A stretch of DNA of 64,000 nt from Peteryoungia ipomoeae (lineage in GTDB: Bacteria; Pseudomonadota; Alphaproteobacteria; Rhizobiales; Rhizobiaceae), in the NCBI RefSeq assembly GCF_004912165.1, contig NZ_STGV01000006.1, forward strand, positions 186,001-250,000, given 5' to 3'. Below the pieces are notes generated by a model. The model was not told where the DNA came from. It did not search any database and saw only the letters and a list, made by a program, of their open reading frames with translations. The first letter of the stretch is position 1. Each line of letters opens with the position of its first letter. The position numbers and the translations under genes are program-made. This document shows, piece after piece, positions 30,843 to 62,878 of this stretch.

Positions 30843-30877
30843 AAAAAAGGCCCCCAAAACGTCACGTTCCGGAAGCC
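30843..30877 (-). terminator. ctRNA intrinsic terminator / repC leader hairpin
   Basis: Minus-strand GGCTTCCGGAACG and CGTTTTGGGGGCC pair over 13 positions with a 3-nt loop, followed by TTTTTT. On the plus strand the same sequence lies in the repC leader and can contribute to attenuation of repC. Confidence 0.85.
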
Positions 30878-30898: not shown

Positions 30899-31024
30899 AG
30901 AGAATCACTTCCAACACGCAAAGTCAAGAGTCGGGCACAGATCATGTGACCCCGAAGGCGATCTCTTGTGCTCTAGAGACGTTTCGCAGGCCTCCTCTTG
31001 CCTCTTCAAAAAGGGGACAATGCG

Positions 31025-41701: not shown

Positions 41702-42640
<939 letters not shown>

Positions 42641-42870
42641 CTTATCCCATCCTTGCACAAGCGGGCTTCGCTTCGAGCGGCCCAAGCGACTGTTCGGGGT
42701 CGATGGAACGGCGGACGAGGACCCTTGCTCACCCACGGGCTTGGCGTCCCAGAGGGGGATCGGTCTCCCGTCCGCCACCGCAACTGGCACTATACCAGAA
42801 ACGGCAAAATCTAAGTTACAAGGGGCACACTGGCCCCCGCCTGATTTCATGAAGGATCGTTCGACGATAC
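42641..42870 (-). ncRNA. IS110 upstream non-coding region, candidate bridge RNA
   Basis: In IS110-group elements the non-coding segment before the recombinase encodes a bridge RNA that pairs with donor and target DNA. Here about 230 nt without a credible gene precede the transposase, with several hairpins visible, for example GGGG/CCCC at about 42822-42838 and ATCGT-TCG-ACGAT at 42856-42868. The assignment comes from position and family knowledge, not from a known sequence match. Confidence 0.35.
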
Positions 42871-43086: not shown

Positions 43087-46000
43087 ATGTCCATCGAAGA
43101 TCTCCGCCAGTCTGGCATCGACAATACTTCCGCGAATACCGACTTCAGTGAAGTGGCTGAACAGCATCTGAACATCCTGCCCGAGGCTGAGGATGCTCTG
43201 GAGATTGCTCAGGCTGACCCGGCATCGTCTGTCTCGACGGATGCAGCTCCCGTCGAGGCCGCACCGACAGCCATCCCGACGCTCGTCAAGCCTGACGATA
43301 ACAATGTGGTGACGCTGCCTGCCACTGTCGATCTCGACAACCTGGAGTTCGAAGTTGCCGGAAACGACCTGGTACTCGTTCTCGCCGATGGGACCGAAAT
43401 CACGGTGCAGGGTGGCGCGGCCAACATTCCGACGTTCGTGATCGGTGAAGTCGAACTGCCTCAGGTGGTTCTCTTTGCAGCGCTTGAGGACAGCAACATC
43501 AACGTTGCGGCGGGTCTGGACGGCAGCTTCAGCGCCCAGGCCGGTTCGCCCAGCAACGGTGCCGACTTCAACGACGACCCTTATGGCGACGGCCCGGCTG
43601 AGCTCGGACTGATCGACCTGCTCGGTGACACGAGCTTTGGCGACGAGTTCCGCACTGCGCAGATCTTCGGCGGCAATGGCCGGCCTTCAATCGATGGCGC
43701 GTTAGAAGGGTCCTTCCGTTTTGACGAAGCGTTTATTGCCGATGGCGTTGCCGGCAATGAAAGCTTCAGCGGAAGATTGCCGTTTAATCCGGGTCCGGAT
43801 GATGGCACGATTTCCGCGATCGGTTTTGCCGGGGCAGGAAATGTCGATGAAGAAGGTGACGGTAGCAGCACCACGCTATCTCTGACATCCGGTGGCTTGC
43901 CGGTCCAGTTCGAGACTTTCCCGGCACCCACTGGCACCGCCCTCAATTTTCTCGCCCTGCGCGGCTTTATTGTCGTTGATGGCGTCAAGACACCGATTTT
44001 TGAGATCACCGTCGACGATCGCACGAGCGGCGACTTCACGTTCAAGCTGATCGGCAAGCTCGACCACCCGGATGCTGGCGCCGATGACAGCCAGGCTGAC
44101 GCCTCCGACATCATCCGTCTTGGCTTCAACTATACAGTGACCGACAATGACGGCGACAGCGTCACTGGCGATTTCGAGGTCGACATTCTCGACGATGCGC
44201 CGTCTTTTGGCGCGCCGACGCCTGGATTTGTCGATGAGGATAAGCTGCCTGAAGGTTTTGACGAAGTTCCCGAAGGAGACCGAGCCGTTTTTGATGGTGA
44301 GCCTTCTTCCGAGATTTCGCCTTCGCCGTCCGATGAGCCGTCATCGCCGTTCCCGTCCGTGCAGGGCTCGCTTGGTATCAACTGGGGCGCTGACAACGGC
44401 AATGCGGTTGTCGATGGTGGGCTTACCGATGCGGTTAACGATCGCGGCGTTGCCTTCACGCAAGGCACCTTGGACGATTTGGTAGAGCAGGGGCTCTCGT
44501 CAGATGGTGTGGACCTTGAATACAAGCTATCTGATGATGGCATCACCGTTTATGCCTACAAGCCGTATTACGATGGCGGCGACAAGGGCGGCCTTGTAAG
44601 CGCCAAGTTCTTCGAAGGCGGTATCAGTTCTCCGTATTTTGAGAACGTTCAGGGGCATGTCGTATTTACCGTGACATTGTCCGATGTTCTTAACGGCACT
44701 TATGATTTCACCCTATACGGCAACCTGGACCACCAGGTTTCCGGAACGAGCCCAGAGGCAGAGGAAGATCTTTCCATTAGCTTCAAGTTCACGGCCAAGG
44801 ATAGTGATGGCGATACGGCCGGCTCCAAATTTACCGTCAACGTGAATGACGACAGCCCGGTATTTGAATCCGCGCCGACCAACGCATCGATTGACGAAGA
44901 GGATATTCCGGGCAAGGAGCAGAGCCCCGGGATCGGGAACTCCGGCGACAGCTATGCGGACACGCCTGCTGCAGATGATCTGCCGTGGCCTGGGACTGGT
45001 TCCGGCTTCTACAACAACTGGGATGGAGGCCGTGTGGTGTACGGCAACCTCAACATAGACTGGGGTGCGGATGATAACCAGGGCTTCCTCGACGGTTCTG
45101 CGGATCGATCTGTTAGTCTTACGGCTGTTGGTGCCGGTACAGTCTTCCAGACCGGTGCGGTCGTTCAGGTTGTTCAGGACGGGGCCTCGACACCTTCGCC
45201 GCTGACACACAACGGTGAAACCGTAAAGATGTGGGTGTCTTCAGATGGCGACTATGTGTGGGGCTACACCGGCGAAGTGGTGGGGGACTTTCCGCCACAG
45301 CAGTCACAGGTTGTTTTTACGATCGGCCTGGGTGATGGCGGAAGCGGATCCTATTCCTTCACTCTTTATAAAAACCTCGACCACGCGGTAGCCGGGACCG
45401 AGGATGATCTGCGCATAGATTTCAAGGTTGTTGCAACTGACAGCGACGGCGACAAGGCGACGTCCGGTTTCTCCATAACGATCGACGATGACGCTCCGGT
45501 CATCGTTGCCCCCGTTGCCACGACAGTCGAAGATGAAAAAGCAGCCAACGGCAATGACGAGACTGAGTCTCCAAACAATCTGGCCGGCCAGGCCACCGGC
45601 AGCCTCTCGATCAACTGGGGTTCCGACAACGGCAACAATGGCTCGGGCGGCCTTGGCGATCGCTCCGTCAGCTTTGTCAGCAAAGACGTGACCATCAGCG
45701 GCGGCCTGGACGGCAAGTTCACTTCGCTCGGCATGCCAGTGAACACTGTGGTTCTCAAGGACGGTACGCTTATTGCTTACACTGGCAACAATGCGCCGAC
45801 CGCTGCCACGGGTGACGGCGCGGAAAACGTCGTATTCTATGTCGAGCTTTCGGATACGGGGGTCGATAACAAGGGTGCCTACACCTTTACCCTGGTCAAG
45901 CCGCTTGATCATGCCAATGACGGCACAAACTCTGAAAACAGCCTGGACCTAACCTTCAATTTCAACGCCACCGACAGCGACGGGGATACGGTAACCAGCA

Positions 46001-49000
46001 GCTTCAAGGTCACCGTCGTTGACGACAAACCTGAGCTGGCCAAGGTCTGCCCGATCGAGGAAACGGCCAACGAAGACGACATCAGCACAATCGGTTCGGC
46101 TCACCCGGGTGCATCGCTTGGCACGAGTCCCAATGACGGCAACCGTGACGGAACCTATACCGGCAATCCGCCGAGTGCGAGCACAGGCCCGGCCTTCCTC
46201 TCCGGTTCGCTCACCGGCCTGGTTAAGGTTGGTGCCGATAACAAGGTGACTTTCTCCTTCATCGAGAGCGCGACAGTTGTCAGCACGCTGACGACCCTTG
46301 GTCTGTCCTCGAAGGGCCAGCCCCTTAGCTACGAGCTGAAGGATGGTGTTCTCTATGCTTTCGACAACGAAAATAGCGACGGCGCCTACCAGTCGGCCGC
46401 CGATCGTCTGGTCTTTACGTTGGAACTCAAGGCGGACGGCTCCTACGCATTCAGCCTTTATGACCAGCTGGATCATGATGCCCCCCGCGATGACCGGTGG
46501 GATCGTGAGACCGATGCAGATCAAAATGAAGACCTTCAGGATAAAATTGAGGGTGATGTTACGGCAATCGATTTCGGCTCGCTGATCAAGGCAACCGATA
46601 ACGATGGCGATAGCGTTACTCTGAATGATGCCTTCTCTATCAAGATCCGCGACGATGTTCCGGAGCTGAGCGGCAAGAAGGAAACCCGCACCGTTGACGA
46701 AGACGACATCGCGACGCGGGATTCGAGGGGTACGAGCCCGAACGACGGCGATCAGAATGATGACTCGCTGACAGGCAATCCGCCGAGCGCAGATAGGGGG
46801 CCAGCCTTCATCTCTGGCTCGCTGACGCGCCTCGTCAATGGCGGTGCGGACGACACGGTCCGCTTCTCCTTCATCGATGGTCGTGATGCCGCGCAGGTCA
46901 TGGATCGCCTCGGCTTGTCGTCAAAGGGCGAAGAACTCAGCTATGAAGTGAAGAATGGTGTTCTCTACGCCTATGACAACGACCGTGGCGGCCCAGGTTT
47001 TGGTGACGGCGATCGCCTGGTGTTCAAGCTGACGCTGAACCAGGACGGCTCCTACGAGTTCGAACTGCACGATCAGCTGGATCACGACTGGGCGAAGGGT
47101 GAGAACTTTGACCTCCAGGACGGGTCGTCGCGCTTCGATGTCACCGACCTCGACTTCGGCAAGATCATCAAGGTCACCGACTACGACGGCGACTCCATTA
47201 CGCTTGATGGTGCCTTCAATATCGAAATCCGGGATGATATCCCTACGGCAAAAGCGGAAAACACCTGTGAAACGTTGATCGTCGACGAGACCGACGATCG
47301 CCAGAATGACGATGTCAGGGATGCTATTGCAATCTTTAGAGGCCTTCGCGACGTCGGTTCCGACCGTGACATGGATCCGCAATTCGCCCGGCAAGAGAAT
47401 TTCGTGAAGGCGATAATCAACGGCGGTGCAGACGACGATGTCGACGTCGATTGGTCGCTCGAGCTGACCGGTCGCGACGGGCTCGACTCCGGCCTGAAGA
47501 CCACCGATGGCAAGACCATCAAGCTCTATGTTGAGGGTGATTTGATCGTCGGCCGCTACGAAGACGGTCGTAGCAATAGCCAGACACATGGTCACGGACA
47601 CGGCCATGCCGGGGGTAGCAACAAGGGTGACGCGGCCTTCGCGATCCACATTGCCGATGACGGCACTTTGTCGATGGTCCAGTATGTTTCGATCAAACAC
47701 GATGACGCGTACGATCACGACGAGTCCAACGATGCGAATGATGGTATTTCCGCGACGGATCTGCAGACGCTTGCCGGTAAGATCAATGCCATTCTGACCG
47801 TCACCGACTTCGACGGCGACAAGGCCGTCAGCAAGGTCGCCGTCGGTGATCGTATCCAGTTTGAGGACGATGGTCCGAGCGTCAAGCTGACCCTAAACAA
47901 GAAGGCCTCGATCATCATAGACGAGACGGATGGAGTTCGGGAAAGCAACCTGGAAACCGACCGTGTCGGTCACGATCTGGGCTCAGTCAAGATCTCTGCC
48001 AAGTCGCTGTTCACTGAGTCTGTCTCCTACGGCGCCGACGGTGCTGCCAGCCAGGCGTCGAAAGTCTATTCTCTGGCGATCAAGGGTGCGAACAGGGAAT
48101 CGGGTCTGCTTGATGCGGTAACCAACGAGAAAGTAATGCTCGTTGACAAAAACGGCGTGATCGAGGGCCAGATCTCCGGTGGTCGCGTCGTGTTTACGAT
48201 CGCAGTCAACGCTGAGAGCGGCGAAGTCACGGTGACGCAGTGGCGCGCCGTCGAGCACTCGGACAAGAACTCACATGACGAACTATCTAGGGCGATCACG
48301 AGCGCCAAGCTCGAGCTGACGGTCACCGTCAAGGATGGTGATAACGACACCGATCACGACAGCATCGATCTCGGTTCGATCATCCAGTTCCGTGACGATG
48401 GCCCGAAAGTCGGAGCCAACGAGACTGTCGTTCTTGAAGACGACGATCTACCGAACGGCATCGACGGCGGTGACTGGGACAATGAAGCGCCGAATAACTC
48501 GACCGGCACCTTGTCGCATCATTTCGGCACAGACGGTGGGTCGATTGCGCTGACCGGCGTGGATCTTCCGAAAGACCTCGGGTTCAAGGTGTCGCCACAC
48601 ACTGCTTCGGAACTGGTGGTGATGCAGGCGCAGGGCGACAAGGACGTTCCTGTTTTGAAGGTTGTCATTGATCCTCAAACCGGAGTCTACGCTGTCACGC
48701 AACTGGCCCCAATCCGTCACCCGTCGTTGAACGGTGATGACGGAGACAATAAGGAAAACAACGTCGATTTCACCATCAAGTATCGTGTCACAGATGGTGA
48801 CAACGACACGGCCAACGGTACGCTGAAAGTCACCATCGACGACGACATGCCGGATCCGAAGGTGACGGTCCCGACTGGCACTGTGGTTGTGCATGACGAG
48901 ACTGCAGGCCTGCAGGAAAATGACGTGAACAGCAGCTTCCCGAGTGTACCGCACGCCGGCGGATCGCCGATCGGCGTTGCCCAGTCCGCAACTGCGATCG

Positions 49001-52000
49001 TCACCGTCGATCCGCGTTACGGTGCGGATGGTCAGGGATCTGTTCGTTACGCAATTGATGTACCAGGCGGCGACAAGATTTCGTCTGGGCTCTTCACCAC
49101 AAGCGGCAAGCCGATCACCCTTTTCGAAGTGAGCCCGACACTCGTGGTTGGCCGCTACGATGGCGCAGATGGAGACCTGTCGGTCGGCGACAAGGATCCT
49201 GCGGCATTCGCCATTCACATTGACCCGACCACAGGCGTCGTCACCATTGCGCAATATGTGGCGCTTCAGCATCCAAATGGCGGTGACAGCCACAACGAAC
49301 TTCTGGCCCTTGGCAAGAATACGCTGCGCGTTACTGTGTCGGTCGAGGATGCCGATGGCGACAAGGTCGAACAGCGCGTCGAAATCGGCGACAAGATCGG
49401 CTTCAAGGACGATGGCCCCAAGGTCACGCTGACGAGCAGGCAGGGTGCTGAGATCGTCATCGACGAAACCGATGGCGTTCCGGCCACTGACGAGGTTGAC
49501 GAGCTCGGCGGAAACCTCGGCACGGCCACTGTCGCGGCGTCGGCAGTGTTTGACCAGGTCTTTAACTACGGGGCTGATGGCGCGGCAGCGCAGGGCGCCA
49601 AGGTCTATGGTCTTTCAGTGTCTACGGGTGGTGTTGACACCGGACTTGTCGATCCGGCATCGAACATGGCCATCCGTCTGTACAACAACAACGGCGTGAT
49701 CGAAGGCCGTGTCGGCGCGACTTCGCCCGTAATCTTCACCGTGTCCGTCAATGCCGCCACCGGCGAAGTGACAGTGACACAGCTAAGTGGGATTAAGCAC
49801 ACCGATACGACCAGCCATGACGAATTGTCGTCCCAGATCACCGCGGGTGTTTTGAGGCTTTCGGTGACGATCAAGGACGGCGATGGCGATATACATAGCC
49901 AGAGTGCTGATCTCGGTTCGGTCATCAAGTTCCGTGATGACGGTCCGAGCGTGAAGTCCGGCTCGATCTCGCTTTCCGTCGATGAAGACGGTTTGCCGGG
50001 TGCTGCCAAGGACGCGCAGCCGACCGCCTTGGCGGGCGAAGTCCAGGGCACCAACAGTGCCACCACCTCCGTGACGGTTGCCGACCTCAAGGCGCTGTTC
50101 AATTTTGGTGCTGACGGTGCGCATGCAAGCGAGGCGATTTCGCTGAAGGCACCTGCCAGTGGCGCGCCGGAGCTGACCTCGCAGGGCAAGCCGATCCAGA
50201 TTACGGTGAGCAGTGATGGCAAAACGCTGACGGGTACCGCTGATAACAGCCCAGTCTTCACGCTCAAGTTGAGCGATGATGGCAAGACCTATGGCTTCGA
50301 ACTCAATGGCCAGATCGATCATCCGTCGCTGTATGGTACAACGGACGATAACACCGAAAACTCCCTCCCGCTCGATCTTTCAGCCTACATCGTCGGCAAG
50401 GACGGCGATGGCGATACGGTGTCGCTCACCCCCGGCAAGTTCGTGATCAACGTGCAGGACGATATTCCGGCCGTTAAGGCTGGCGAATCTGTCAACGTCA
50501 AGGTTGATGCGCCTGTCGTTGTTGAGCCGGTACCAGGCAAGGTCGCAAACTTCGTCCTCGTCATTGATACGTCGGGCAGCGTGACCGCCGAGCAGATCGA
50601 AACACAGGTAAAGGATTTTCTTGAGAGCCTTGAGGGGTCTGGAGCCGATTTGGTCCGTGTTCACCTCGTGGAGTTTGGGGACAATGCGGCGCCGATCGGT
50701 ACCTATGACCTTATCAAGGCTGATGGCCCCGACGATAATGAGCTTCAGCGCGCGTTTGACGATATCGAAGACCTCAACTTTGGTGGTGAAACCAATTATG
50801 AGGCCGGTCTGCAGCAGGCCTTGCAGTGGATTGAAGGCATTCCGTCCAAGACCATCAATGTGACTAGCGAACTCAAGGAGTTCGACGCAAATGCGAACGG
50901 CCAGGGCCAGGGCCAAGGCAATACCGATAAGGCTTTCATTATCGGCAATGGTTCTACGCAGTTTGCGCTGGTCTCAGGCTGGGTTGCGCCTGCTAACCAG
51001 GTTGGTCATCTGCGCAGCGCCGACGGTGATATCACCAATGGCTGGGGTGTGGACGGCAATAACGGCAACAATTCCGAGCCGCATGACCTTGAGCCTGCTC
51101 CATCGACGGAGGTGCTGCGTTTTGACTTTGGAACGTTCAACGACTTCGACAACGACGGCGCTTACCATAACAGGGAAAGCTTCAATGGCGTTCCGGTGAC
51201 GAGCGCGACATTCAATCTTGACCGTCAGGCGAGTTCTGGGGTCACCAACTTCGAGTATACCGCATACTTCGTCGATGGTTCTCTGGCACAAACAGGTTCT
51301 TTGCCGGTCTCGGGTCATGACGCCCCGCTGACGATTGTGGGACTGGATGGAAATGCTGGAAAGCAGATCGCCTACATCGAATTCCGTGTGACTTCCGGTC
51401 GCGGGGACGTTGATCTCGACACTGTCCAAACGGCTCCAGTTCCCCCGGGCACGATCCCGGATGCCGATGTCAACCAGCTGATCTTCATCTCGGATGGCCT
51501 GCCAAACAGGGCCGTCGGCGATAACAATGCCACGCCCATTGAGGCGATGGATGCTATCAAGGAAGAGCTTGAAGCTATCGTCCAGCAGGGCAATCGCCCG
51601 GGTGACCAGGCCTTCGAAATCGAAGCTTTTGCGGTCGGTTCCGCTCCGAACCTGACTGTTCTCGGTCAGGTCGAAAATGGCACCGCCCAGGACCTGAAAG
51701 ACACCACTCTGGTCAAAGAATTCGCTGACTTGATTGATAGTCTGGGGGGCGTCGAAGGCTCTCAGACGGGCACAGCGCCAGTTGCGTTCAATATCGGCAG
51801 CCTCGTTACTGTTGGTGCTGACCAGCCTATCGCCTTCACCCTGAAGGACACCTCTGCATCAGTGGAGGCCCTCAGAGCAGAGGGCCTGAAATACGGCGGC
51901 AATGATCTGGATTACGAAATTGAAGGGAACACCGTCACGGCCAAGGTCGGCTCGACTGTGGTCTTCACGTTGGTGCTCCAGGCCAATGGCCAGGGTACCT

Positions 52001-55000: not shown

Positions 55001-55830
55001 ACGGCCACAAGGATCAGATCGCCTGGACGAGCGACGACGGCATCCTCGCCTATGACGTCGATGGCAACGGTCTGATCTACAACGGCTCGGAAATCTTCAC
55101 GCCGGACTTCAACGGCGGGAAATATGCGAGCGGTGTGGCGGCTCTGGCTTCGCTCGATACGAATGGCGATGGCAAGATCGATGCAAGCGACGATGCCTTC
55201 TCCAAGCTTTCGATTTGGGTTGATGCTGACAATAACGGCATCAGCGACGAAGGTGAGCTGTCGAGCCTCATCGACAACGGTGTCACCAGCATATCGCTGA
55301 CCACCGATAACACCGGCGGTGAGGAAGACGGTCAGACGGTCTTCTCGAAGGGCACCTTCACCTTCGCGGATGGCTCGACGGGTGACTTCATGGAAGTCGG
55401 CTTCGACGCGATCTTCGGATCGGATGCGGATCCGCTGACCGTCATGGGAACGGATGGCAACGACATCCTGCATGGCGGCATGGGCCAGGTGGTGATGACC
55501 GGCGGTGCCGGCGCTGACACCTTCGTCTTCGATGCGACGGCGCTCAGCGAATTCGATGTCGCCGATGTCATCACCGACTACAGTCTGTCTGAAGGCGATG
55601 CGCTCGATGTATCAGCCCTCCTCGACACCTTGCTTGGTGCCGAAGCGGATGCAAGCCAGATGGCTGAGCATGTGAAGGTCGCGACCGATGGCACGGATAC
55701 GACGCTGAGTGTCGATATGGGCGAAAGCGGATGGAAGGATGTCGCGGTCCTGCAGAACCACACCGAAGCGGTGAAGATCCTGTTCGACGACAATCATTCG
55801 ACCACGATCAATCCGGACCTGCATGGCTGA
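43087..55830 (+). CDS. Giant type I-secreted RTX adhesin, LapA/BapA-like, with vWA domain
   Basis: A 4,247-residue acidic surface protein. Order: (1) N-terminal retention-type region (1-150) ending in VAAG (140-143), the dialanine pattern cut by LapG proteases; (2) about twelve DUF5801/T1SS-143-type repeats (roughly 330-2465), each ending in a 'DDxP' step; (3) a von Willebrand A domain with MIDAS DTSGS at 2494-2498, up to about 2860; (4) VCBS/cadherin-like repeats (about 2990-3720), two of them nearly identical; (5) RTX nonapeptides GGxGxDxLx (about 3755-3795); (6) an EF-hand-like Ca-binding region (3940-4060) and (7) a C-terminal type I secretion signal, with 'GGAGADTFVFDA'. The start has GGGGTGA upstream. 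No Cys-rich or Sec signal is present. Role: cell-surface attachment and biofilm formation, inferred from architecture. Cognate exporter genes follow. Confidence 0.9.
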   Translation: MSIEDLRQSGIDNTSANTDFSEVAEQHLNILPEAEDALEIAQADPASSVSTDAAPVEAAPTAIPTLVKPDDNNVVTLPATVDLDNLEFEVAGNDLVLVLADGTEITVQGGAANIPTFVIGEVELPQVVLFAALEDSNINVAAGLDGSFSAQAGSPSNGADFNDDPYGDGPAELGLIDLLGDTSFGDEFRTAQIFGGNGRPSIDGALEGSFRFDEAFIADGVAGNESFSGRLPFNPGPDDGTISAIGFAGAGNVDEEGDGSSTTLSLTSGGLPVQFETFPAPTGTALNFLALRGFIVVDGVKTPIFEITVDDRTSGDFTFKLIGKLDHPDAGADDSQADASDIIRLGFNYTVTDNDGDSVTGDFEVDILDDAPSFGAPTPGFVDEDKLPEGFDEVPEGDRAVFDGEPSSEISPSPSDEPSSPFPSVQGSLGINWGADNGNAVVDGGLTDAVNDRGVAFTQGTLDDLVEQGLSSDGVDLEYKLSDDGITVYAYKPYYDGGDKGGLVSAKFFEGGISSPYFENVQGHVVFTVTLSDVLNGTYDFTLYGNLDHQVSGTSPEAEEDLSISFKFTAKDSDGDTAGSKFTVNVNDDSPVFESAPTNASIDEEDIPGKEQSPGIGNSGDSYADTPAADDLPWPGTGSGFYNNWDGGRVVYGNLNIDWGADDNQGFLDGSADRSVSLTAVGAGTVFQTGAVVQVVQDGASTPSPLTHNGETVKMWVSSDGDYVWGYTGEVVGDFPPQQSQVVFTIGLGDGGSGSYSFTLYKNLDHAVAGTEDDLRIDFKVVATDSDGDKATSGFSITIDDDAPVIVAPVATTVEDEKAANGNDETESPNNLAGQATGSLSINWGSDNGNNGSGGLGDRSVSFVSKDVTISGGLDGKFTSLGMPVNTVVLKDGTLIAYTGNNAPTAATGDGAENVVFYVELSDTGVDNKGAYTFTLVKPLDHANDGTNSENSLDLTFNFNATDSDGDTVTSSFKVTVVDDKPELAKVCPIEETANEDDISTIGSAHPGASLGTSPNDGNRDGTYTGNPPSASTGPAFLSGSLTGLVKVGADNKVTFSFIESATVVSTLTTLGLSSKGQPLSYELKDGVLYAFDNENSDGAYQSAADRLVFTLELKADGSYAFSLYDQLDHDAPRDDRWDRETDADQNEDLQDKIEGDVTAIDFGSLIKATDNDGDSVTLNDAFSIKIRDDVPELSGKKETRTVDEDDIATRDSRGTSPNDGDQNDDSLTGNPPSADRGPAFISGSLTRLVNGGADDTVRFSFIDGRDAAQVMDRLGLSSKGEELSYEVKNGVLYAYDNDRGGPGFGDGDRLVFKLTLNQDGSYEFELHDQLDHDWAKGENFDLQDGSSRFDVTDLDFGKIIKVTDYDGDSITLDGAFNIEIRDDIPTAKAENTCETLIVDETDDRQNDDVRDAIAIFRGLRDVGSDRDMDPQFARQENFVKAIINGGADDDVDVDWSLELTGRDGLDSGLKTTDGKTIKLYVEGDLIVGRYEDGRSNSQTHGHGHGHAGGSNKGDAAFAIHIADDGTLSMVQYVSIKHDDAYDHDESNDANDGISATDLQTLAGKINAILTVTDFDGDKAVSKVAVGDRIQFEDDGPSVKLTLNKKASIIIDETDGVRESNLETDRVGHDLGSVKISAKSLFTESVSYGADGAASQASKVYSLAIKGANRESGLLDAVTNEKVMLVDKNGVIEGQISGGRVVFTIAVNAESGEVTVTQWRAVEHSDKNSHDELSRAITSAKLELTVTVKDGDNDTDHDSIDLGSIIQFRDDGPKVGANETVVLEDDDLPNGIDGGDWDNEAPNNSTGTLSHHFGTDGGSIALTGVDLPKDLGFKVSPHTASELVVMQAQGDKDVPVLKVVIDPQTGVYAVTQLAPIRHPSLNGDDGDNKENNVDFTIKYRVTDGDNDTANGTLKVTIDDDMPDPKVTVPTGTVVVHDETAGLQENDVNSSFPSVPHAGGSPIGVAQSATAIVTVDPRYGADGQGSVRYAIDVPGGDKISSGLFTTSGKPITLFEVSPTLVVGRYDGADGDLSVGDKDPAAFAIHIDPTTGVVTIAQYVALQHPNGGDSHNELLALGKNTLRVTVSVEDADGDKVEQRVEIGDKIGFKDDGPKVTLTSRQGAEIVIDETDGVPATDEVDELGGNLGTATVAASAVFDQVFNYGADGAAAQGAKVYGLSVSTGGVDTGLVDPASNMAIRLYNNNGVIEGRVGATSPVIFTVSVNAATGEVTVTQLSGIKHTDTTSHDELSSQITAGVLRLSVTIKDGDGDIHSQSADLGSVIKFRDDGPSVKSGSISLSVDEDGLPGAAKDAQPTALAGEVQGTNSATTSVTVADLKALFNFGADGAHASEAISLKAPASGAPELTSQGKPIQITVSSDGKTLTGTADNSPVFTLKLSDDGKTYGFELNGQIDHPSLYGTTDDNTENSLPLDLSAYIVGKDGDGDTVSLTPGKFVINVQDDIPAVKAGESVNVKVDAPVVVEPVPGKVANFVLVIDTSGSVTAEQIETQVKDFLESLEGSGADLVRVHLVEFGDNAAPIGTYDLIKADGPDDNELQRAFDDIEDLNFGGETNYEAGLQQALQWIEGIPSKTINVTSELKEFDANANGQGQGQGNTDKAFIIGNGSTQFALVSGWVAPANQVGHLRSADGDITNGWGVDGNNGNNSEPHDLEPAPSTEVLRFDFGTFNDFDNDGAYHNRESFNGVPVTSATFNLDRQASSGVTNFEYTAYFVDGSLAQTGSLPVSGHDAPLTIVGLDGNAGKQIAYIEFRVTSGRGDVDLDTVQTAPVPPGTIPDADVNQLIFISDGLPNRAVGDNNATPIEAMDAIKEELEAIVQQGNRPGDQAFEIEAFAVGSAPNLTVLGQVENGTAQDLKDTTLVKEFADLIDSLGGVEGSQTGTAPVAFNIGSLVTVGADQPIAFTLKDTSASVEALRAEGLKYGGNDLDYEIEGNTVTAKVGSTVVFTLVLQANGQGTFTLNKPVDGPGDKVIDFSTLIQAEDRDGDAVSLAPGKFTVTLDGVPAGEAQTFQTLEDNSVSDKIIATAGEEGGQFELVTGPENGTLTLQADGNFTYQPAKDWHGTETFTVAVVDDDGDSSNIVVTVNVAAVNDNPTAADDSLSSVAEDSGVRVISIASLLGNDSAGPANENGQTLTITALSNVVGGTAIIAGNDILFYPTPNFFGTASFDYTVSDNGQSNGVNDFQASVGTVSFEVTPVNDPASISGIVGREVQENISLAYSGELYAGDVDNPPDTWKVVTSGTSTYGTFSIDVHGTWSYVIDNANPTVDALKPGDKITDYFKVETIDGTPQTISIYIQGTNDAPVITGDLALNVVEGQSVPVTIADLGFTDVDDLPSGVTFAVTESLHGGIHVNGAPAWQFTGEQLQSGQVTFVHNGAEQNTASFKVLLEDGNEDVSPAQTAVVTIDVAPVNDPAVITGIVGRDVAENTTTAYTGDLYAGDVDNTPDTWKVVTSGTSTYGTFSIDAAGTWSYVINNANPTVDALKPGMKLDDSFVVETIDGTKQTVSIHILGTNDAPVVTAPVTGVATEGGVTSTLNALANATDPEGSTLSVVNIGALPAGVTYNQTNKTFTLDPTNSAYTSLAAGATTTVTVSYQVSDGLAATSAQVSWTVTGIANNAAPTAVGETIITNSYTTVIPDWVLLLNDSDANVGDVLSVTADPSSAQSGVWSDDDVVSDTGSTTTYSDKPSIWGISNPEGGSFRYTVADNHGGMSSSVTANVEYKSSLNGTSGADILIGSGNLNGNDGNDVLVGSSGNDKLSGGAGNDILFGGGGADLFKLSTTSGTDTIKDFKIGTDQIGLLDNGTASNSSNGSVNFGSTSAGSTLHSGDVKTSSDMAWGNSNGFDNRVVVITAQQAEAHIKAAIGGQNGSNHADNTYVVVYNSDKGRAEVWFDDNWYTKEDRKLVAILEGVTADQVKNLAENSFYAYSNVTDPVVLDLDKNGFALSSIDNGVTFDIDADGHKDQIAWTSDDGILAYDVDGNGLIYNGSEIFTPDFNGGKYASGVAALASLDTNGDGKIDASDDAFSKLSIWVDADNNGISDEGELSSLIDNGVTSISLTTDNTGGEEDGQTVFSKGTFTFADGSTGDFMEVGFDAIFGSDADPLTVMGTDGNDILHGGMGQVVMTGGAGADTFVFDATALSEFDVADVITDYSLSEGDALDVSALLDTLLGAEADASQMAEHVKVATDGTDTTLSVDMGESGWKDVAVLQNHTEAVKILFDDNHSTTINPDLHG
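44190..50470 (+). repeat. DUF5801/T1SS-143 repeat array in adhesin
   Basis: Twelve repeat junctions with the pattern D-D-x-P occur near 44190, 44845, 45485, 46020, 46650, 47235, 47862, 48392, 48840, 49410, 49935 and 50457, about 450-660 nt apart. Each unit contains a 'D.DGD.' Ca-binding step and 'F.L...LDH' core. Units are divergent at DNA level, so this is an old expansion. Confidence 0.8.
52741..53679 (+). repeat. Recent duplicate of a VCBS-like repeat in adhesin
   Basis: Two units beginning at 52741 and 53380 (offset 639 nt, 213 codons) share long near-identical stretches, for example 52826-52881 against 53465-53520. The protein text 'DTWKVVTSGTSTYGTFSID' is shared exactly. This is a recent in-frame duplication and a likely site for recombination-driven length change. 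Confidence 0.8.
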
Positions 55831-55851
55831 TCCGTGATCAAAGATGGAGAA

Positions 55852-55875
55852 GGGGTCCGCAAGGGCCCCTTTTTT
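55852..55875 (+). terminator. Strong intrinsic terminator after adhesin
   Basis: GGGGTCC (55852-55858), a GCAA tetraloop and GGGCCCC (55863-55869) are followed by six T residues. It ends the adhesin transcript 22 nt after its stop, so the exporter genes need their own promoter. Confidence 0.92.
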
Positions 55876-56266
55876 CGTTCACGATTCGAGCGGCATGGTC
55901 TCTCGATGGTCTCGATCGTCGACCAGGCTGGGAGCGCGAGCCCGATCAGGTCGATTTCGTCTGTTGCGAAACGGCGACAGGTTCTTTCGAAACCGGCGGC
56001 TGTTAACTAAAAAACACCAGAAAAGCAGGGGTTAAAATTCCTAGTTAAGAGGAAAACGAATCGCTTTGCAGGCACTCTGAACGAGTGGATCCCGCAGACG
56101 CTGTCTGAAAGGCACAAAAATATTCCTTCCCTCATCCCTTAATCCACTTGGTATTTCTAACCGATCAAAATTGGGTGTATATTTTGGACTGGTCGAATAG
56201 ACTTCCCAGGCTCCAGTGTGCCGGTATATAACGAGCCTCACCTAAGAATTGGGTAGGGGCACTAAA
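55876..56266 (+). promoter_or_regulatory. Intergenic promoter region for type I secretion genes
   Basis: This 391-nt region between the adhesin terminator and the outer-membrane gene holds no credible gene. The middle part (56000-56180) is AT-rich. TATATA at 56225-56230 lies about 37 nt before the chosen TTG start and may be part of a -10 box. No clear -35 is seen. Confidence 0.45.
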
Positions 56267-57700
56267 TTGATTATCAAGAAGACATTGTTTGCAGCCTTGT
56301 ATACCTCGGCCGCCATCGCAGTTACATCCTGGTCTCCAGCGAGCGCAATGTCGTTGCAGGAAGCCATTCAGAAGGCGATGACCACCAATCCGCAGATTTC
56401 GCAGGCAGTCGAAAACCGGGAAGCGGTGGAATTTGAACTCCGTCAGGCGCGCGGGCTTTATCTGCCGTCTGTCGATCTGGAGGCAAGCGTTGGCCGACGT
56501 CGCCTGTCGAATGACAGCACCGGCACTCTCACGCAGGATTATGAGAACTTCTCGAATGCCGAAGTCGGCCTGACTGTTACCCAACGTCTGCTGGATGGTG
56601 GCGGTCGTCGTGCACAGGTCGATCAGCAGGCCTCTCGCGTGGACAGCGCGTCGTTCCGCGTTCTGGATCGCTCGGAAACCGTCGCGCTTCAGGTCGTGCA
56701 GGACTATCTTGAATATATCCTGCAGGCCAAGATCGTCGGCATTGCCAAGCAGAATGTCGATTTCCACGGTGGCATTCTCGGCGACATCCGCCAGGGCATC
56801 TCCGGCGGCGCTCTGACCGATGTCGACGCCCTGCAGGGGCGTGAACGTCTGGATGCGGCGCGCGCCCGTCTGCGCGAAGCCCAGGAAGAGCTGGAGCTGA
56901 CCAAGATCCGTTTCCTGAAAACGGTGGGCGAGCCGATCACCAATGCCAAGATGCCGCCGTCGATGGGCAAGTTCCTGCCGCGTTCTCTACAGGATGCCAT
57001 TGCTGCTGCAAAAACCAGCAATCCGCGGATTTATGCGGCCCGCGCCGATATCGATGCCGCTGATGCGGCGGTGCGCAATTCGCGCTCCAACTATGCACCG
57101 ACCGTCGACCTTGAAGGTCGGGCAAGCGTCGGCAACGATGTTGGCACGAGCCAGGGCAATACCAACGATGTGCAGGTTCGTCTTGTGGCGCGTTGGAACC
57201 TCTATCGTGGCGGTATCGATCAGGCTCGCGAGCAGGAGCAGATCCGCCGTGCGAGCGAACAGCGTTTCGCGTCTGACCAGGTTCACCGGGAGATCGAAGA
57301 GTCTGTCCGCTCGGCCTGGAACGAGCGCAGCAGCCGTGGCGAACTCTCGCAGATCCTCGGTTCGCAGTCGTCGCAGAATGCGAAGCTCGTCTCGTCTTAC
57401 GGCGAGCAGTTCAAGATCGGCCAGCGTTCGCTGCTCGACGTGCTCGATGCGCAGAACACGCGCTTCAATACGAGCATTGTCGCCGAAACGGCACGTTTTG
57501 CCGCGCTGTTTGCCGAATACAAAATCCTGGCCGCTTCGGGTTCATTGTTGAAGTCGATGAGTGTCAAGCCCGTCGGCCAGTCAGAAGCTTACGCGCGCAA
57601 CGAGTTTTCCGTGAAGGCAAACCAGACTGGGGGGTATGCCAAGCGGGATCCGCGGCAACAGGCGGGTGTTCCGATGGACCTCCTGGCGCCGCTTCAGTAA
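56267..57700 (+). CDS. Type I secretion outer-membrane protein, TolC/LapE-like
   Basis: Outer-membrane channel (477 residues) of the type I secretion system. It has a signal peptide (IIKKTLFAALYTSAAIAVTS, cleavage after ASA) and two OEP domains: 'SLQEAIQKAMTTNPQISQAVENREA' opens the first and 'SLQDAIAAAKTSNPRIYAARADI' the second; 'YGEQFKIGQRSLLDVLDAQN' is the typical TolC end. I start it at the TTG at 56267 because AGGGG lies 7 nt upstream; another TTG is at 56249. It is followed 22 nt later by the ABC exporter. Confidence 0.9.
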   Translation: MIIKKTLFAALYTSAAIAVTSWSPASAMSLQEAIQKAMTTNPQISQAVENREAVEFELRQARGLYLPSVDLEASVGRRRLSNDSTGTLTQDYENFSNAEVGLTVTQRLLDGGGRRAQVDQQASRVDSASFRVLDRSETVALQVVQDYLEYILQAKIVGIAKQNVDFHGGILGDIRQGISGGALTDVDALQGRERLDAARARLREAQEELELTKIRFLKTVGEPITNAKMPPSMGKFLPRSLQDAIAAAKTSNPRIYAARADIDAADAAVRNSRSNYAPTVDLEGRASVGNDVGTSQGNTNDVQVRLVARWNLYRGGIDQAREQEQIRRASEQRFASDQVHREIEESVRSAWNERSSRGELSQILGSQSSQNAKLVSSYGEQFKIGQRSLLDVLDAQNTRFNTSIVAETARFAALFAEYKILAASGSLLKSMSVKPVGQSEAYARNEFSVKANQTGGYAKRDPRQQAGVPMDLLAPLQ

Positions 57701-57721
57701 CCGCCCATCCAATAGGATGAA

Positions 57722-59875
57722 ATGTTGAATGTCATGGTAGAAGCGACGGGCACTCGTGCCCGCGCAAGTTTTCGTGCGTCCTTCAAAGCTGTGGCTGCCT
57801 ACTATGGACGGCCCAGCTCAGATACTGTCTTGTTCTCCGGACTGCCGGACGAAATCGTCGAGTCGCTGGAACCTGATGATGTCGAACATATGGCTGAGCG
57901 CATTGGCCTGCAGGTCACGCGGGTTGGCCAGCGGGCACTGAAAACGGGGGACTTCGACTGTCCGGCAATCGTCGTTCTTGAGGATGGCGGCACGCTGCCC
58001 TTGCTCGATGTCAGCGAGGATGGCGTTTTCACCCTCGATCTGCGAGACGGCTCGGGTGCTGCCCGAATTGGGCGCGAGGAGCTTGCGGCCATGGGCCCGC
58101 AATTCGCCTTTGCCTTTACCCTGTTTTATCGCAATGATGCCGAAGAGGCAGTCCTTGGCGAGGCGGAGAAGATCGAATCTCGCCATTGGTTGGTGCGCGC
58201 ACTGGCGCCCTATTGGCGCACCTATCTGCGTGTTGTGGTTGCGGCCTTGTTTATCAACCTGATTGCGCTGGCCTCGCCGCTTTTCACCATGAACGTCTAT
58301 GACCGGGTTTTGCCAAACAAGGCGATCCCCACGCTCTGGGTGCTCGCGATCGGCATCATGGTCGCCTATCTCTTCGACTTTCTGCTGAAAACAGCGCGCG
58401 CGTCGCTGATCGACCACGCCGGGCGAAGCGCTGATTTACGGCTGTCCCAGATGATCTTCGACAAGGTCTTGAACACGACGCTTGCCTCGCGGCCGCTGTC
58501 CACGGGCGAGTATGCGAACCGCGTCATGCAATATGAGTTCGTGCGGGAATTCTTCACGTCGAACACGATCGGTCTGGTCATCGATACCGCTTTCGTCGTC
58601 GTGTTCCTGATCGTCATCTACCTGATTTCCGGATGGCTGGCCGTCATTCCGGCCGTCGCGCTCATCCTGTCCGTCGCGATCGGCTTTTACGCCCAGGCAA
58701 AGATCGGTCACCGGATGGCAGCCTCCGCGAACGAGGCCTCCAAGCGCCAGTCTCTGCTCGTTGAGACGATCTCGACGATCGAAACGCTGAAAAGTTTGCG
58801 CGCCGAAGCAACCATGTTGCGCCGCTGGCAGGAGCTGATGAAGCATTCGAGCCGGACCAGCGAAGAGATCAAGCATATCTCGACAAATGCCATCAATCTG
58901 ACTGCCCTGATACAGCAGTTGGTTGGTGTGCTCATCGTCATCGCCGGTACCTATGAATTCAGCGAGGGGCGACTTGCCATGGGCGCGATCATCGCGACCG
59001 TGATGCTGGCCAGCCGGGCCGGCGCTCCATTGGGGCAGATTGCCATGACTCTGGCGCGGTTTCGCCAGGCATCGCTATCGCTACGCATTCTCGATCAGGT
59101 CATGGAGCAGCCGGAAGACCGGCCTGCCACCGTCGGCTTCGTCAATCGCGAAATCAGGCAAGGCGGCTTTGCGTTTCAGGATGTGTCCTTCCAGTATCCG
59201 GGATCGGACCAGCCTGTTATCAGCAAACTTTCGCTGACCGTCGCGCCCGGAGAGCGCATCGGCATTATCGGTCGCATCGGCTCGGGCAAGACCACGCTCG
59301 GTCGCCTGCTCGATGGTCTCTTCGTTCCGTCCGAAGGTCGGATACTGATCGATGGCGTGGATATTCGTCAGTATCACATGTCAGAGGTGCGTGCTTCCGT
59401 TGCGGTCGCGGGCCAGTCCTCCGATCTCTTTTCCGGAACGGTCAAGGAGAACCTGTTGATTGGTCGGGCCGATGCGACCGATGAAGAACTTCTCGAAGTG
59501 GCCCGGATGACTGGCGTCGAGGAGTTTGTCGCTCGTCACCCCCGTGGCTTCGACATGCCGGTTGGCGAGCGCGGCAACAATCTGTCCAATGGTCAGAAGC
59601 AGGCGATGACCATCGCCCGGCTTCTTTTGACCAAGCCCAAGATTGTCTTCCTGGATGAGCCGTCCGGCGCCATGGATCTTGCAAGCGAGCGGCATCTGCT
59701 CAACCGTCTGTCGACGGCCTTCGACCGGAATACGACGCTGCTGGTGGCAACGCACCGTTTTTCGATGCTCGATCTCGTTGATCGCCTCATCGTGCTCGAC
59801 AAGGGCAAGATCGTGGCTGATGGGCCTAAGAAATCCGTCATTGAGGCGATGCAGGCGAGGGGGATGAAGCCATGA
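57722..59875 (+). CDS. Type I secretion ABC exporter, LapB/HlyB-like
   Basis: Inner-membrane exporter with fused ATPase (717 residues). Residues about 20-145 form a C39-peptidase-like domain without the catalytic Cys, so it docks rather than cleaves substrate. Next is the membrane domain (about 165-450) with six spans, then the ATPase: Walker A GRIGSGKT (517-524), signature LSNGQ (621-625; Asn replaces Gly) and Walker B ending D645-E646. This layout is typical of LapB and of RTX adhesin exporters. The adhesin upstream is the expected cargo. The ATG overlaps nothing upstream; the stop overlaps the MFP gene by 4 nt. Confidence 0.93.
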   Translation: MLNVMVEATGTRARASFRASFKAVAAYYGRPSSDTVLFSGLPDEIVESLEPDDVEHMAERIGLQVTRVGQRALKTGDFDCPAIVVLEDGGTLPLLDVSEDGVFTLDLRDGSGAARIGREELAAMGPQFAFAFTLFYRNDAEEAVLGEAEKIESRHWLVRALAPYWRTYLRVVVAALFINLIALASPLFTMNVYDRVLPNKAIPTLWVLAIGIMVAYLFDFLLKTARASLIDHAGRSADLRLSQMIFDKVLNTTLASRPLSTGEYANRVMQYEFVREFFTSNTIGLVIDTAFVVVFLIVIYLISGWLAVIPAVALILSVAIGFYAQAKIGHRMAASANEASKRQSLLVETISTIETLKSLRAEATMLRRWQELMKHSSRTSEEIKHISTNAINLTALIQQLVGVLIVIAGTYEFSEGRLAMGAIIATVMLASRAGAPLGQIAMTLARFRQASLSLRILDQVMEQPEDRPATVGFVNREIRQGGFAFQDVSFQYPGSDQPVISKLSLTVAPGERIGIIGRIGSGKTTLGRLLDGLFVPSEGRILIDGVDIRQYHMSEVRASVAVAGQSSDLFSGTVKENLLIGRADATDEELLEVARMTGVEEFVARHPRGFDMPVGERGNNLSNGQKQAMTIARLLLTKPKIVFLDEPSGAMDLASERHLLNRLSTAFDRNTTLLVATHRFSMLDLVDRLIVLDKGKIVADGPKKSVIEAMQARGMKP

Positions 59876-61164
59876 GTCGTGCCATCGTTGATGCTCCTCC
59901 TTTCATGGCGCGTATGATCGTTGGCCTGATCGGCGCCATGATCGTGATTTTCGTCGCTTGGGCGGCCATTGCCGAGATCGATGAGATCGCGCGTGGGGAA
60001 GGCAAGGTCATTCCACTCTCCAAGACGCAAATCATCCAGTCGTCCGAGGCGGGTATTGTTCAGACGATCGCCGTGCAGCTCGGCCAAGTGGTTCGCAAGG
60101 GCGAGTTGCTCGTGCAGATCAACAACACGACGACGGAATCCTCGCTCGGTGAGGCTGAGGCCAAGGCGCGCGCGCTCGGTGCCAAGGTTGCGCGGTTGGC
60201 GCTGGAAGAGGCCGGCGCCTATGACGAACAGTTCGTCTGCCCGCCAAGAGTACTCGAAGTTGCAAGCAGTGTCTGCGAAAACGAGGAGCGGCTGTTTGCG
60301 GCCAACAAGGCAGCCTATGAGAACAAGGCCGGAGTTTTGCGTGAGCGGGTCCGCCAGCGGGAAAACGAGCTGAGCGAAGCGCATGCCAATATCGCCCGCC
60401 TTGAGCAGAACATCACACAGGCAACGCGCCAGTACGATCTGATGAGTCCACTCGCCAAGAAGGGCCTGGTGGCGCAGACGGAGGTCATTTCGCTGGAGCG
60501 GGAACTGACCGATCAACGCGGCCAGATCACGGTGTACCAGGAGAGCCTCGAGCGCTTGCGGGGTGCCGTCGAAGAGGCCCGCCTTCAGGTCGATGAGTTG
60601 TCGTTGCAACTTCGGCAGCAGGCTCTGACCGAGAAGGCGCAGACGCTTTCAGAGCTATCGGTCATTGATGAAACGATCCGTGGTGCGTCTGATCGCGTCA
60701 GCCGCACCGACATCCGCTCGCCGGTGGACGGCATCGTCAACACACTCGAGGTCAATACGATCGGCGCCTATGTCGATCCTGGAACGGTGGTTGCGGGTAT
60801 CGTGCCCACCGCAGACACGCTGCTGATCGAGGCGAAGATTTCGCCGCGCGATGTGGCCTTTATCCGCCGCGGTCAGAAGGCAATCGTCAAGGTCACGGCC
60901 TACGACTTCTCGATCTTTGGTGGGCTGGAAGGCGAAGTCACGAATGTCTCTGCTGACAGTATCGTCGACAAGGAAAAGGGCGAAACCTTCTATCTGGTTC
61001 AGGTGAAGACGCAGGAGTCGCAACTGGTGCGCAATGGCGTCAGCTATCCGATCATTCCAGGCATGGTGGCCTCGGCCGAGATCATGACCGGGCGCAAGAC
61101 GATCCTGAGCTATCTGATGAAGCCGATCAACAAGGCCCAGTCCGTGGCCCTGACGGAGCGGTGA
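59872..61164 (+). CDS. Type I secretion membrane-fusion protein, LapC/HlyD-like
   Basis: Periplasmic adaptor (430 residues) joining the ABC exporter to the TolC-like channel. It has a short cytoplasmic N-terminus, one membrane span ('MIVGLIGAMIVIFVAWAAIAEID'), a lipoyl half-motif ('GEGKVIPLSKTQIIQSSEAGIVQ'), a long coiled-coil (about 90-265) and the second lipoyl half ('RTDIRSPVDGIVNTL'). The C-terminus 'RKTILSYLMKPINKA' is the HlyD-family type I secretion signature. The ATG overlaps the exporter stop (ATGA). Confidence 0.93.
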   Translation: MSRAIVDAPPFMARMIVGLIGAMIVIFVAWAAIAEIDEIARGEGKVIPLSKTQIIQSSEAGIVQTIAVQLGQVVRKGELLVQINNTTTESSLGEAEAKARALGAKVARLALEEAGAYDEQFVCPPRVLEVASSVCENEERLFAANKAAYENKAGVLRERVRQRENELSEAHANIARLEQNITQATRQYDLMSPLAKKGLVAQTEVISLERELTDQRGQITVYQESLERLRGAVEEARLQVDELSLQLRQQALTEKAQTLSELSVIDETIRGASDRVSRTDIRSPVDGIVNTLEVNTIGAYVDPGTVVAGIVPTADTLLIEAKISPRDVAFIRRGQKAIVKVTAYDFSIFGGLEGEVTNVSADSIVDKEKGETFYLVQVKTQESQLVRNGVSYPIIPGMVASAEIMTGRKTILSYLMKPINKAQSVALTER

Positions 61165-61168
61165 GGCC

Positions 61169-61825
61169 ATGACCGTCGCTGATCCCCATTCATCTAAATC
61201 TGAAGCCAGTGATCTGGCGGCTCAGATCGTGCCGGAGCTTGAAGAAGGCGATGCGGAACCGAAATTCCGCGCGATCGCCTGCGCCGATGGCGTGCGGCGG
61301 GGGATCAGGCTGGAAACCATCTATTGGGATGGTCTGGCGTCTCTGGTCGCCGGCTCGCGCCACTCTTTGTCGGATATCGTGGAACGGGCATCGGTACAGG
61401 TTGGCGAGGGAAGCAATCTCGCGTCCATGTTGCGGGTGCTGGCATTTCGCTGGATGTGGCGCCGCTATTCCGATCTTCAGGCGGCATATTCGGCCGATAC
61501 GCTGAACACGCTGGTGCATGCCTGCCCCAGCCCAGTCATCGTGCTGACCCGGGACAAGAAGATCCAGCTGTTCAATGAGGCGTTTGTGACACTGCTGAAA
61601 CAACGGCTTGCTCTCGGCAATGTTCTTCAGCTATCGACGGGCTTCCGCTTCGTTTTGGAAACGCAGGTGGAAGAGGCCCTGGAGATTTTGGCGAGCAAGG
61701 GCAAGATGATCACCACAGGCTTTACCGCCAGCTGCGGCGGGCGCCAGCTCTCCGGCCAGATTAACCTCGCCATGGTCCCCACACATCGCAAGCCCATGGT
61801 CATCGGCTACATCGTTCGCCACTAG
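61169..61825 (+). CDS. Ribbon-helix-helix plus PAS domain protein
   Basis: A 218-residue soluble protein. Residues about 40-98 ('GIRLETIYWDGLASLVAGSRHSLSDIVERA') fit the RHH_4 ribbon-helix-helix family. Residues about 110-217 ('NTLVHACPSPVIVLTRDKKIQLFNEAFVTLL', 'VIGYIVRH') fit a PAS fold. There is no signal peptide or membrane span. It begins 4 nt after the MFP stop in the secretion operon, so it is co-transcribed. RHH domains usually bind DNA as dimers and PAS domains sense ligands or redox state, so it could be a one-component regulator of adhesin genes or a cytoplasmic partner of the exporter. I do not know a described role. Confidence 0.75.
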   Translation: MTVADPHSSKSEASDLAAQIVPELEEGDAEPKFRAIACADGVRRGIRLETIYWDGLASLVAGSRHSLSDIVERASVQVGEGSNLASMLRVLAFRWMWRRYSDLQAAYSADTLNTLVHACPSPVIVLTRDKKIQLFNEAFVTLLKQRLALGNVLQLSTGFRFVLETQVEEALEILASKGKMITTGFTASCGGRQLSGQINLAMVPTHRKPMVIGYIVRH

Positions 61826-61912
61826 GGCTGCGGTTCTCCGCTAGTTAAGCCTGGTTCCATCCCGCTTCCGAGCGTGAGATCTGTGTACCAGAGGTCGACG
61901 ACGGCAATGCTG

Positions 61913-62878
61913 TCAAAGCGCGCCGCCTTCTCCAGGAGCCACGTTGTCGAGGCTCGTCATGGCGAGTGCCTTGCCCTTGGTTTTGGTTCCATGCAGGAAG
62001 CCGCGACCGTTCGAGATCGAGAACAGTGGCTGGTAATTGGGAAGCTGGCTGTCGGCCAGTACCTGATTGCGCATGTTGTCCAGGATATAGTGGTTGCCGT
62101 TGACCTCTACCGACAGGACGGCATGGTAGAACTTGCGCTTTGTGTCGAAGAGGATGACGACGGTCATATCGTCAAGCGGAATGCCGCGGGCAGCAAGGAC
62201 GGCCATCTTCAACAGGGCATAATCCTCACAGTCGCCTGTTCCGCGGGCGAGTGTCTGCGACGGGGAAGACCACTGATCCATGCGCCCATGGGTGTCGATG
62301 TCGCGACGATACTGGATGCGGTTGTTGATCTCGGCGTTGACGCTATCCAGTTTTGCCCGGATTGAGCCAGCTTCTGCCTTGATCAGCGATACCTTGGCAA
62401 ACGCCCGACAGTGCGCAGCCTGGCATTCCAGTGCGCTTCCATTTTTGATTTCGCGGAATGTCTCAGCCGATTTCTTCAGTGCGCCCAGCTTTCTGAAGGG
62501 TATGGCAACCGAATTGAACACATCGCCGCCGGTTTGGCGGCGGGCCTGTGCGGATGCGGCTTTCTTGCCGGAGATGGCACCGGTCAGGATGTCGTCATTG
62601 GCAGGTGGAACCGGAGAGTGTGCCGCAATGCTAACCTCGGTACCCATGGACCTCAGCGCGCCGAGAGCAAATTTGCGACCCTCATCGACCCGTGCGGATG
62701 CCGCAGAAATCAGGCCCGTAAAACGAAGCGGTGTCACCCCGATTGCCAGGATCTGCGCAGCGGAAGAGTGCTGAAGCAAGACTGCGGTGGATGTCGCTTG
62801 GGCCGAAGGAGCGGATGCCAGAATACTGGCAAAGGCGAGAGCTGAGGCTGCGACGATATTGTTCTTTTTCTTGAGCAT
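61913..62878 (-). CDS. LapG-like periplasmic cysteine protease (BTLCP)
   Basis: Bacterial transglutaminase-like cysteine proteinase (321 residues). Signal peptide MLKKKNNIVAASALAFASIL, cleavage after AQA. The catalytic triad is Cys217 ('GTGDCEDYALLK'), His252 ('KFYHAVLSV') and Asp267 ('HYILDNM'), in LapG order and spacing. LapG-type proteases cut adhesins at a dialanine site near the N-terminus and release them from the cell surface; the adhesin encoded upstream has such a site. No LapD gene is visible here. GGAGA before the ATG at 62878 sets the start. It is convergent with the RHH-PAS gene. Confidence 0.85.
   Translation of the reverse strand: MLKKKNNIVAASALAFASILASAPSAQATSTAVLLQHSSAAQILAIGVTPLRFTGLISAASARVDEGRKFALGALRSMGTEVSIAAHSPVPPANDDILTGAISGKKAASAQARRQTGGDVFNSVAIPFRKLGALKKSAETFREIKNGSALECQAAHCRAFAKVSLIKAEAGSIRAKLDSVNAEINNRIQYRRDIDTHGRMDQWSSPSQTLARGTGDCEDYALLKMAVLAARGIPLDDMTVVILFDTKRKFYHAVLSVEVNGNHYILDNMRNQVLADSQLPNYQPLFSISNGRGFLHGTKTKGKALAMTSLDNVAPGEGGAL

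Follow-up and report, generated by a model that had tools for sequence, protein, structure and literature searches.

How is a giant surface adhesin released when a LapG-like protease is encoded beside it and no LapD receptor is found? This question is raised by a 64,000-nucleotide stretch of Peteryoungia ipomoeae DNA (contig NZ_STGV01000006.1), called the window below, in which a type I secreted adhesin, its exporter and a BTLCP protease are encoded together. An earlier note on this DNA had read the locus as a self-contained rhizobial version of the Lap release switch. The reading preferred here, to which a probability of about 0.7 is given, is that of a LapG-type adhesin release system whose control relies on something other than a recognisable receptor of the LapD or DvhD type; the release regulator is replaced, lost or unrecognised.

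Gene content and neighbourhood

The features of the locus are collected in Table 1. The giant adhesin and the three exporter genes announced in the earlier note were all recovered. The adhesin ORF contains repeats and RTX motifs, and its C-terminus also matched T1SS_VCA0849 in the profile search of the window ORFs; like LapA, it is a giant type I substrate with a C-terminal secretion signal. The protease gene does lie at the end of the locus, as had been claimed. Its convergent orientation on the minus strand had been overlooked, as had the ribbon-helix-helix and PAS gene (RHH-PAS) lying between HlyD and the protease, which was absent from the earlier gene list. Given the convergent orientation, protease and exporter must be transcribed separately. 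The lipoprotein-like gene is possibly of the periplasmic-binding-protein type: among the five family members scanned, a Peripla_BP_6 match was found in L013 and none in the window part, L005, L011 or L018. An IS110-type transposase is found just upstream of the adhesin in two pieces, which are separate ORFs on the minus strand (41702-42067 and 42215-42850).

Table 1. Features of the adhesin locus (positions in the window)
Feature	Position	Strand	Evidence
Type I secreted adhesin, 4,247 aa	43087..55830	+	DUF5801/T1SS-143 repeats, cadherin/VCBS, vWA, RTX
Putative retention module, about residues 61-150	43267..43536	+	alignments A2/A6; AF2 block pLDDT 83-92; family scan
VAAG, residues 140-143, predicted cleavage site	43504..43515	+	aligned with TAAG/PAAG in relatives
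von Willebrand A domain, adhesin residues 2490-2586	50554..50844	+	PF13519, 34.1 bits
C-terminal type I secretion target region, adhesin residues 4160-4226	55564..55764	+	TIGR03661, 29.5 bits
TolC-family outer membrane channel	56249..57700	+	TIGR01844
Type I secretion ABC transporter, LssB type	57722..59875	+	TIGR03375, 791 bits
HlyD-family membrane fusion protein	59872..61164	+	TIGR01843
RHH_4 and PAS-like protein, between HlyD and protease	61169..61825	+	PF13467, 32.7 bits; PF13188, 19 bits, under its cut-off
BTLCP (Peptidase_C93) LapG-like protease	61913..62878	-	PF06035, 75 bits; signal peptide by eye; D216-C217-E218, H252, D267
Start of lipoprotein-like gene, divergent from protease; runs past window end	63187..63999	+	lipobox-like stretch by eye

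RepA/RepB/RepC-like genes are found at 28393-32236 of the window, whose source genome measures 4.39 Mb. The best 20 plasmid records listed for the stretch from exporter to protease came from Peteryoungia, Rhizobium, Sinorhizobium and Ensifer. The locus is plasmid-type.

Neighbourhoods were compared at 58 protease loci, defined by a protease match of at least 158 bits among L005-L088, L182-L208 and the window. Left out were L003, the window's own copy, and L207, an exact duplicate; near-identical species remain in the set. Near the protease were found HlyD (48 loci), TolC (45), ABC (45), RHH-PAS (44), the module-bearing adhesin (37), the lipoprotein (25) and a membrane GGDEF protein (18), all these counts being lower bounds, as many contigs end early. 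All 44 RHH-PAS genes fall within the 48 HlyD loci, the gene being missing from L029, L047, L064 and L073. RHH-PAS is a constant partner in the window's clade, and this linkage makes it a candidate regulator. At eight sphingomonad-type loci, an extra gene lies between the HlyD and ABC genes; the one scanned (L075) matched the cell wall hydrolase family PF07486.

A shared operator for the RHH protein was considered and dropped: upstream regions of the window have at most two 10-mers in common pairwise, except those of the protease and lipoprotein genes, for which one intergenic stretch is common to both. Some 8-mers are enriched inside gene classes in the upstream regions (kinship uncorrected). 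About 95 bases before the window adhesin start lies a TGCATAACC..TATATC..GGTTAA-like element. The TGCATAAC/GTTATGCA core was found upstream of 12 of 35 adhesin, 6 of 25 lipoprotein, 5 of 51 protease, 0 of 41 TolC and 0 of 19 GGDEF genes. The protease upstream regions of relatives contain an AT-rich AAGTATAAAATTT-like element, and AGTATAAA/TTTATACT was found upstream of protease (13/51), adhesin (4/35), lipoprotein (1/25), TolC (0/41) and GGDEF (0/19) genes.

The protease and the predicted cleavage site

The full Cys-His-Asp triad ascribed to the BTLCP protease was borne out. Asp216, Cys217, Glu218, His252 and Asp267 are invariant in all 35 aligned rows, made up of the window and 34 of the 80 protease-relative loci; the protein has both the triad and the calcium-site acids flanking the Cys that mark LapG-type enzymes. 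The corresponding D-C-E residues of DvhG are needed for calcium and catalysis, according to the accessible text of PMC13090378. The nearest solved sequences found with phmmer were Legionella LapG (4fgo, E = 1.5e-14) and P. fluorescens LapG (4u65, E = 7.7e-12). An AF2 model was built from the 35 rows, with a block pLDDT of 93-97 for residues 171-290 and lower values in the first third of the chain; its six best PDB matches in Foldseek were all LapG chains (E 1e-10 to 1e-9). By fold, the protein is a Peptidase_C93/BTLCP member with LapG as its best solved match. Two further BTLCPs in the same genome match PF06035 far above the window protease (223 and 231 bits); the gene of one (L001, 518-1135) adjoins a protein that appears PilZ-like by eye.

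An N-terminal module of the adhesin is kept among relatives in the alignments; in the window, it ends in ..FAALEDSNINVAAGLDG... The predicted site was read in 41 aligned rows, after L170 (the same place as L202) had been left out of 42: VAAG in 22, IAAG in 3, PAAG in 3, TAAG in 1, VAEG in 6 and VAFG in 6, the rows being related and two of them (L179 and L184) being copies in one genome. AAG is kept in 29 of the 41 rows; against a cleavage reading, the second Ala of the scissile pair is missing in the other 12. PAAG and TAAG in relatives recovered by the same profile suggest a LapG site as the ancestor of VAAG. Because VAAG and VAEG rows went into that profile, the alignment could be drawn to AAG, although the context AAL..N-I before the site also aligns in most rows. 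In a FastTree of the proteases, those paired with VAEG and VAFG each form one group, nested among the VAAG ones. As each clade is one tree group, no claim of protease-site co-evolution is made from clade-marking residues.

The published site consensus consists of a helix, DP and [T/A/P]AAG, as given in the accessible part of PMC13090378. The window has a modelled helix and VAAG, with no DP before it. In the AF2 model of the module (12 rows; whole-model mean pLDDT 64, 83-92 over residues 61-150), a helix spans residues 126-135 and is followed by strands 138-142 and 148-152. Although the motif follows the helix, it lies in strand 138-142 of a hairpin, and this modelled position would speak against a free linker; in Dvh adhesins, the motif is described in a loose segment after the helix (PMC13090378, accessible part). 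The module matched no PDB fold at E ≤ 0.001 and no NCBIfam retention family over its cut-off (best, BapA prefix, 16.1 bits for a cut-off of 35). A first profile comparison with Bradyrhizobium modules was circular, the window sequence being in both alignments, and was not used. With a Bradyrhizobium-only alignment, the match was weak (probability 24%). The four Bradyrhizobium rows have LPAA at the site position, and three of them go on to AAG, L045 being the exception.

Within Peteryoungia, on a P. desertarenae plasmid (L005, L213), two module-bearing adhesins, both with INVAAGPDG, stand in a row beside one such protease, and a sensor kinase and a response regulator are among the genes between RHH-PAS and the protease.

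Receptors and candidate inputs

The earlier note had found no LapD-like protein in the window, and this was confirmed. The genome-wide search that it had proposed returned none either: the best match to the LapD domain (PF16448) had 11.6 bits, under the cut-off. It lies in an ORF (L004) with PAS, GGDEF and EAL, signatures intact by eye, which was rejected as a LapD. The 20 EAL matches of the genome (scripted scan, seven in full) contained no LapD/MoxY-domain candidate, and none of the 20 is on the window's contig. No LapD was found in 199 genomes of the window's family, where PF16448 was matched at E ≤ 0.001 in 17 genomes (best 38.3 bits), two of which are protease genomes. Among 50 genomes reached via 50 of the 80 protease-relative loci, weak matches were found in six (best 35.1 bits), five of them Bradyrhizobium. 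The four weakly matching sequences that were read with Pfam, L129 and L132 from Bradyrhizobium and L180 and L181 from the family scan, are HisKA_3/HATPase histidine kinases and were rejected as hidden LapDs. As a positive control, PF16448 reached at least 78 bits in 29 of 150 phylum-wide genomes, none of them in the window's class; the one match read was HAMP-GGDEF-EAL. A receptor combining LapD_MoxY_N, GGDEF and EAL was found neither in the source genome nor in the 199 family genomes. The LapD-like genes reported for T1SS clusters of Bradyrhizobium and some Mesorhizobium in the accessible text of PMC7730722 count against this absence.

It is rather unlikely that a LapD-like c-di-GMP receptor of unrecognised sequence, encoded elsewhere in the genome, controls the protease by the classic logic, like DvhD in Desulfovibrio. 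Another receptor can stand in for LapD, as the HD-GYP/dCache protein does in D. vulgaris (PMC13090378). Proteins of a common cluster lie beside the protease at 14 loci, five of them from Desulfovibrio, and the four members scanned (L056, L073, L074 and L084) all match HD_5; two of them also have PAS, and one has a sub-threshold dCache match. An HD_5 protein next to the protease, as in Dongia and at three other loci scanned, favours a hidden receptor; outside Desulfovibrio, a MAG labelled Pseudomonadaceae is a further case. The source genome, however, had no PF16448 match over the cut-off, and its three HD-GYP proteins are 311-450 aa long with no dCache or transmembrane segment by eye; no HD-GYP receptor with a periplasmic dCache was found there. 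Several of the 20 EAL proteins have extracytoplasmic regions flanked by transmembrane segments, which speaks for a hidden receptor, but the five in which two hydrophobic segments flank more than 100 residues (L113, L119, L121, L122 and L123) all keep the GGDEF signature. Four hydrophobic segments and GGDEF are found in L112; in L110 (altered GGDEF) and L117 (SGDEF), the N-terminal part is larger and contains multiple segments.

The same alternative gains some ground from relatives, in which a membrane GGDEF protein is encoded near the exporter or the protease at 18 of the 58 loci. All 18 sequences keep RxxD, which we take to be the c-di-GMP I-site, while just three have an intact GG[DE]EF, a pattern that suggests a protein that may bind c-di-GMP without synthesis. 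These loci are L006, L018, L020, L021, L023, L065 and twelve of L182-L204, and two hydrophobic N-terminal segments are seen by eye. A scan with 17 of the 18 sequences gave at least 284 bits in 12 genomes, all with the protease, an enrichment that is partly by construction as the queries came from the same loci. Against a hidden receptor, the family has no gene in the window part of the locus and no match at 1e-25 in the source genome among the 13 of 59 candidates scored. Besides RHH-PAS and the membrane GGDEF protein, a possible third input is the lipoprotein encoded next to the protease; the window has only the RHH-PAS gene and the lipoprotein.

That no receptor was found in the source genome or in the 199 family genomes would also suit a protease that processes the adhesin constitutively, for maturation or shedding, with no regulated switch, and so would the transcription apart from the exporter that follows from the convergent gene. 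This is less probable still: an always-active protease would presumably render a conserved anchor module pointless, and the conserved RHH-PAS gene suggests regulation.

Pairing with the adhesin, known systems and proposed mechanism

In the 199 family genomes, the A4 protease profile gave 28 matches of at least 159 bits, in 27 genomes, and the next match had 102 bits. The A2 module profile was matched in 23 of the 199, all within these 27 genomes, i.e. in 23 of 27 protease genomes versus 0 of 172 others (Fisher p = 2e-26, kinship uncorrected); G312, G334, G338 and G346 have the protease and no module match. Both profiles were built from loci of the same kind, and at most 11 (A4) or 15 (A2) of the best first-look candidates were scored per genome, so that absences are not airtight. 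The pairing of protease and adhesin is more than proximity. It is very unlikely that the protease is an HvyA-like alphaproteobacterial BTLCP with another envelope target, lying beside the exporter incidentally: BTLCPs with different functions occur widely among alphaproteobacteria, as with HvyA, which governs capsulation (PMC4241560), two others are encoded in the source genome, four of the 27 genomes had the protease with no detected module and 10 of the 58 loci had no HlyD within the available stretch, but A4, though built from the subfamily, separates it sharply, the subfamily co-occurs with the module and HlyD is near in 48 of the 58 loci. Of the earlier reading as a rhizobial release switch, the pairing of a LapG-related protease with a module-bearing adhesin and a site aligned with LapG-type sites was upheld; "self-contained" was not, as neither the window nor its genome yielded a LapD- or DvhD-like regulator.

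The locus shares with LapA/LapG/LapD of Pseudomonas fluorescens a giant type I adhesin with an N-terminal module, a TolC-like channel, a LapG-related protease that keeps the triad and the calcium residues, and an AAG-type site after a helix. It differs in that no LapD was found, the site is VAAG instead of [T/A/P]AAG with no DP, an RHH-PAS gene is added and the protease is convergent with the exporter. Like DvhA/DvhG/DvhD of Desulfovibrio vulgaris, as described in the accessible part of PMC13090378, it has a LapG-like protease without LapD, and some relatives of the window protease come from Desulfovibrio; the HD-GYP/dCache receptor is encoded in the Dvh operon, whereas none was found in the window or its genome. 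HvyA and HvyA-like alphaproteobacterial proteins are also periplasmic BTLCPs, and control of their abundance is a precedent; HvyA belongs to a capsule export locus and affects capsulation (PMC4241560, accessible text), whereas the window protease falls in a subfamily of its own, which goes with type I adhesins. For rhizobial DDxP proteins and BTLCP-containing T1SS clusters, retention before release has already been proposed for some giant proteins beside protease genes (PMC7730722). That paper reports no computer-recognised retention module for the rhizobial proteins, whereas a conserved module and site are described here; its BTLCP- and LapD-like genes concern Bradyrhizobium and some Mesorhizobium, whereas no LapD was found in the window's family. 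The literature searched, mainly titles, openings of abstracts and passages of open-access papers, gave no description of the RHH-PAS partner, the VAAG/VAEG/VAFG sites or the absence of LapD in this family.

In the preferred reading of a LapG-type release system, the dedicated type I exporter would carry the adhesin out and the N-terminal module would hold it back, probably inside the TolC-like channel. The adhesin would be freed by the periplasmic BTLCP protease, which, with calcium as a likely cofactor, would cut at or next to VAAG (140-143). Control would most likely act on how much protease and adhesin is produced, the candidate regulator being the RHH-PAS protein. A tentative and somewhat doubtful extension is that the window's family has a third kind of release switch, in which a LapG-type protease is freed from LapD and DvhD and a cytosolic RHH-PAS protein is the constant control, in some cases together with a membrane GGDEF protein whose I-site is kept and whose active-site motif is mostly lost. 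In this view, TAAG/PAAG would have given way to VAAG, and VAAG in turn to VAEG and to VAFG on one occasion each, with protease and substrate changing in step.

The three site types (VAAG, VAEG and VAFG) are ready test pairs for protease specificity. Through the release of its giant adhesin, a cell decides between attachment and departure. If protease and adhesin work without LapD in the window's family, a different signal input has taken over, and the attachment of rhizobia to roots and other surfaces would be wired to cues other than those used in pseudomonads.
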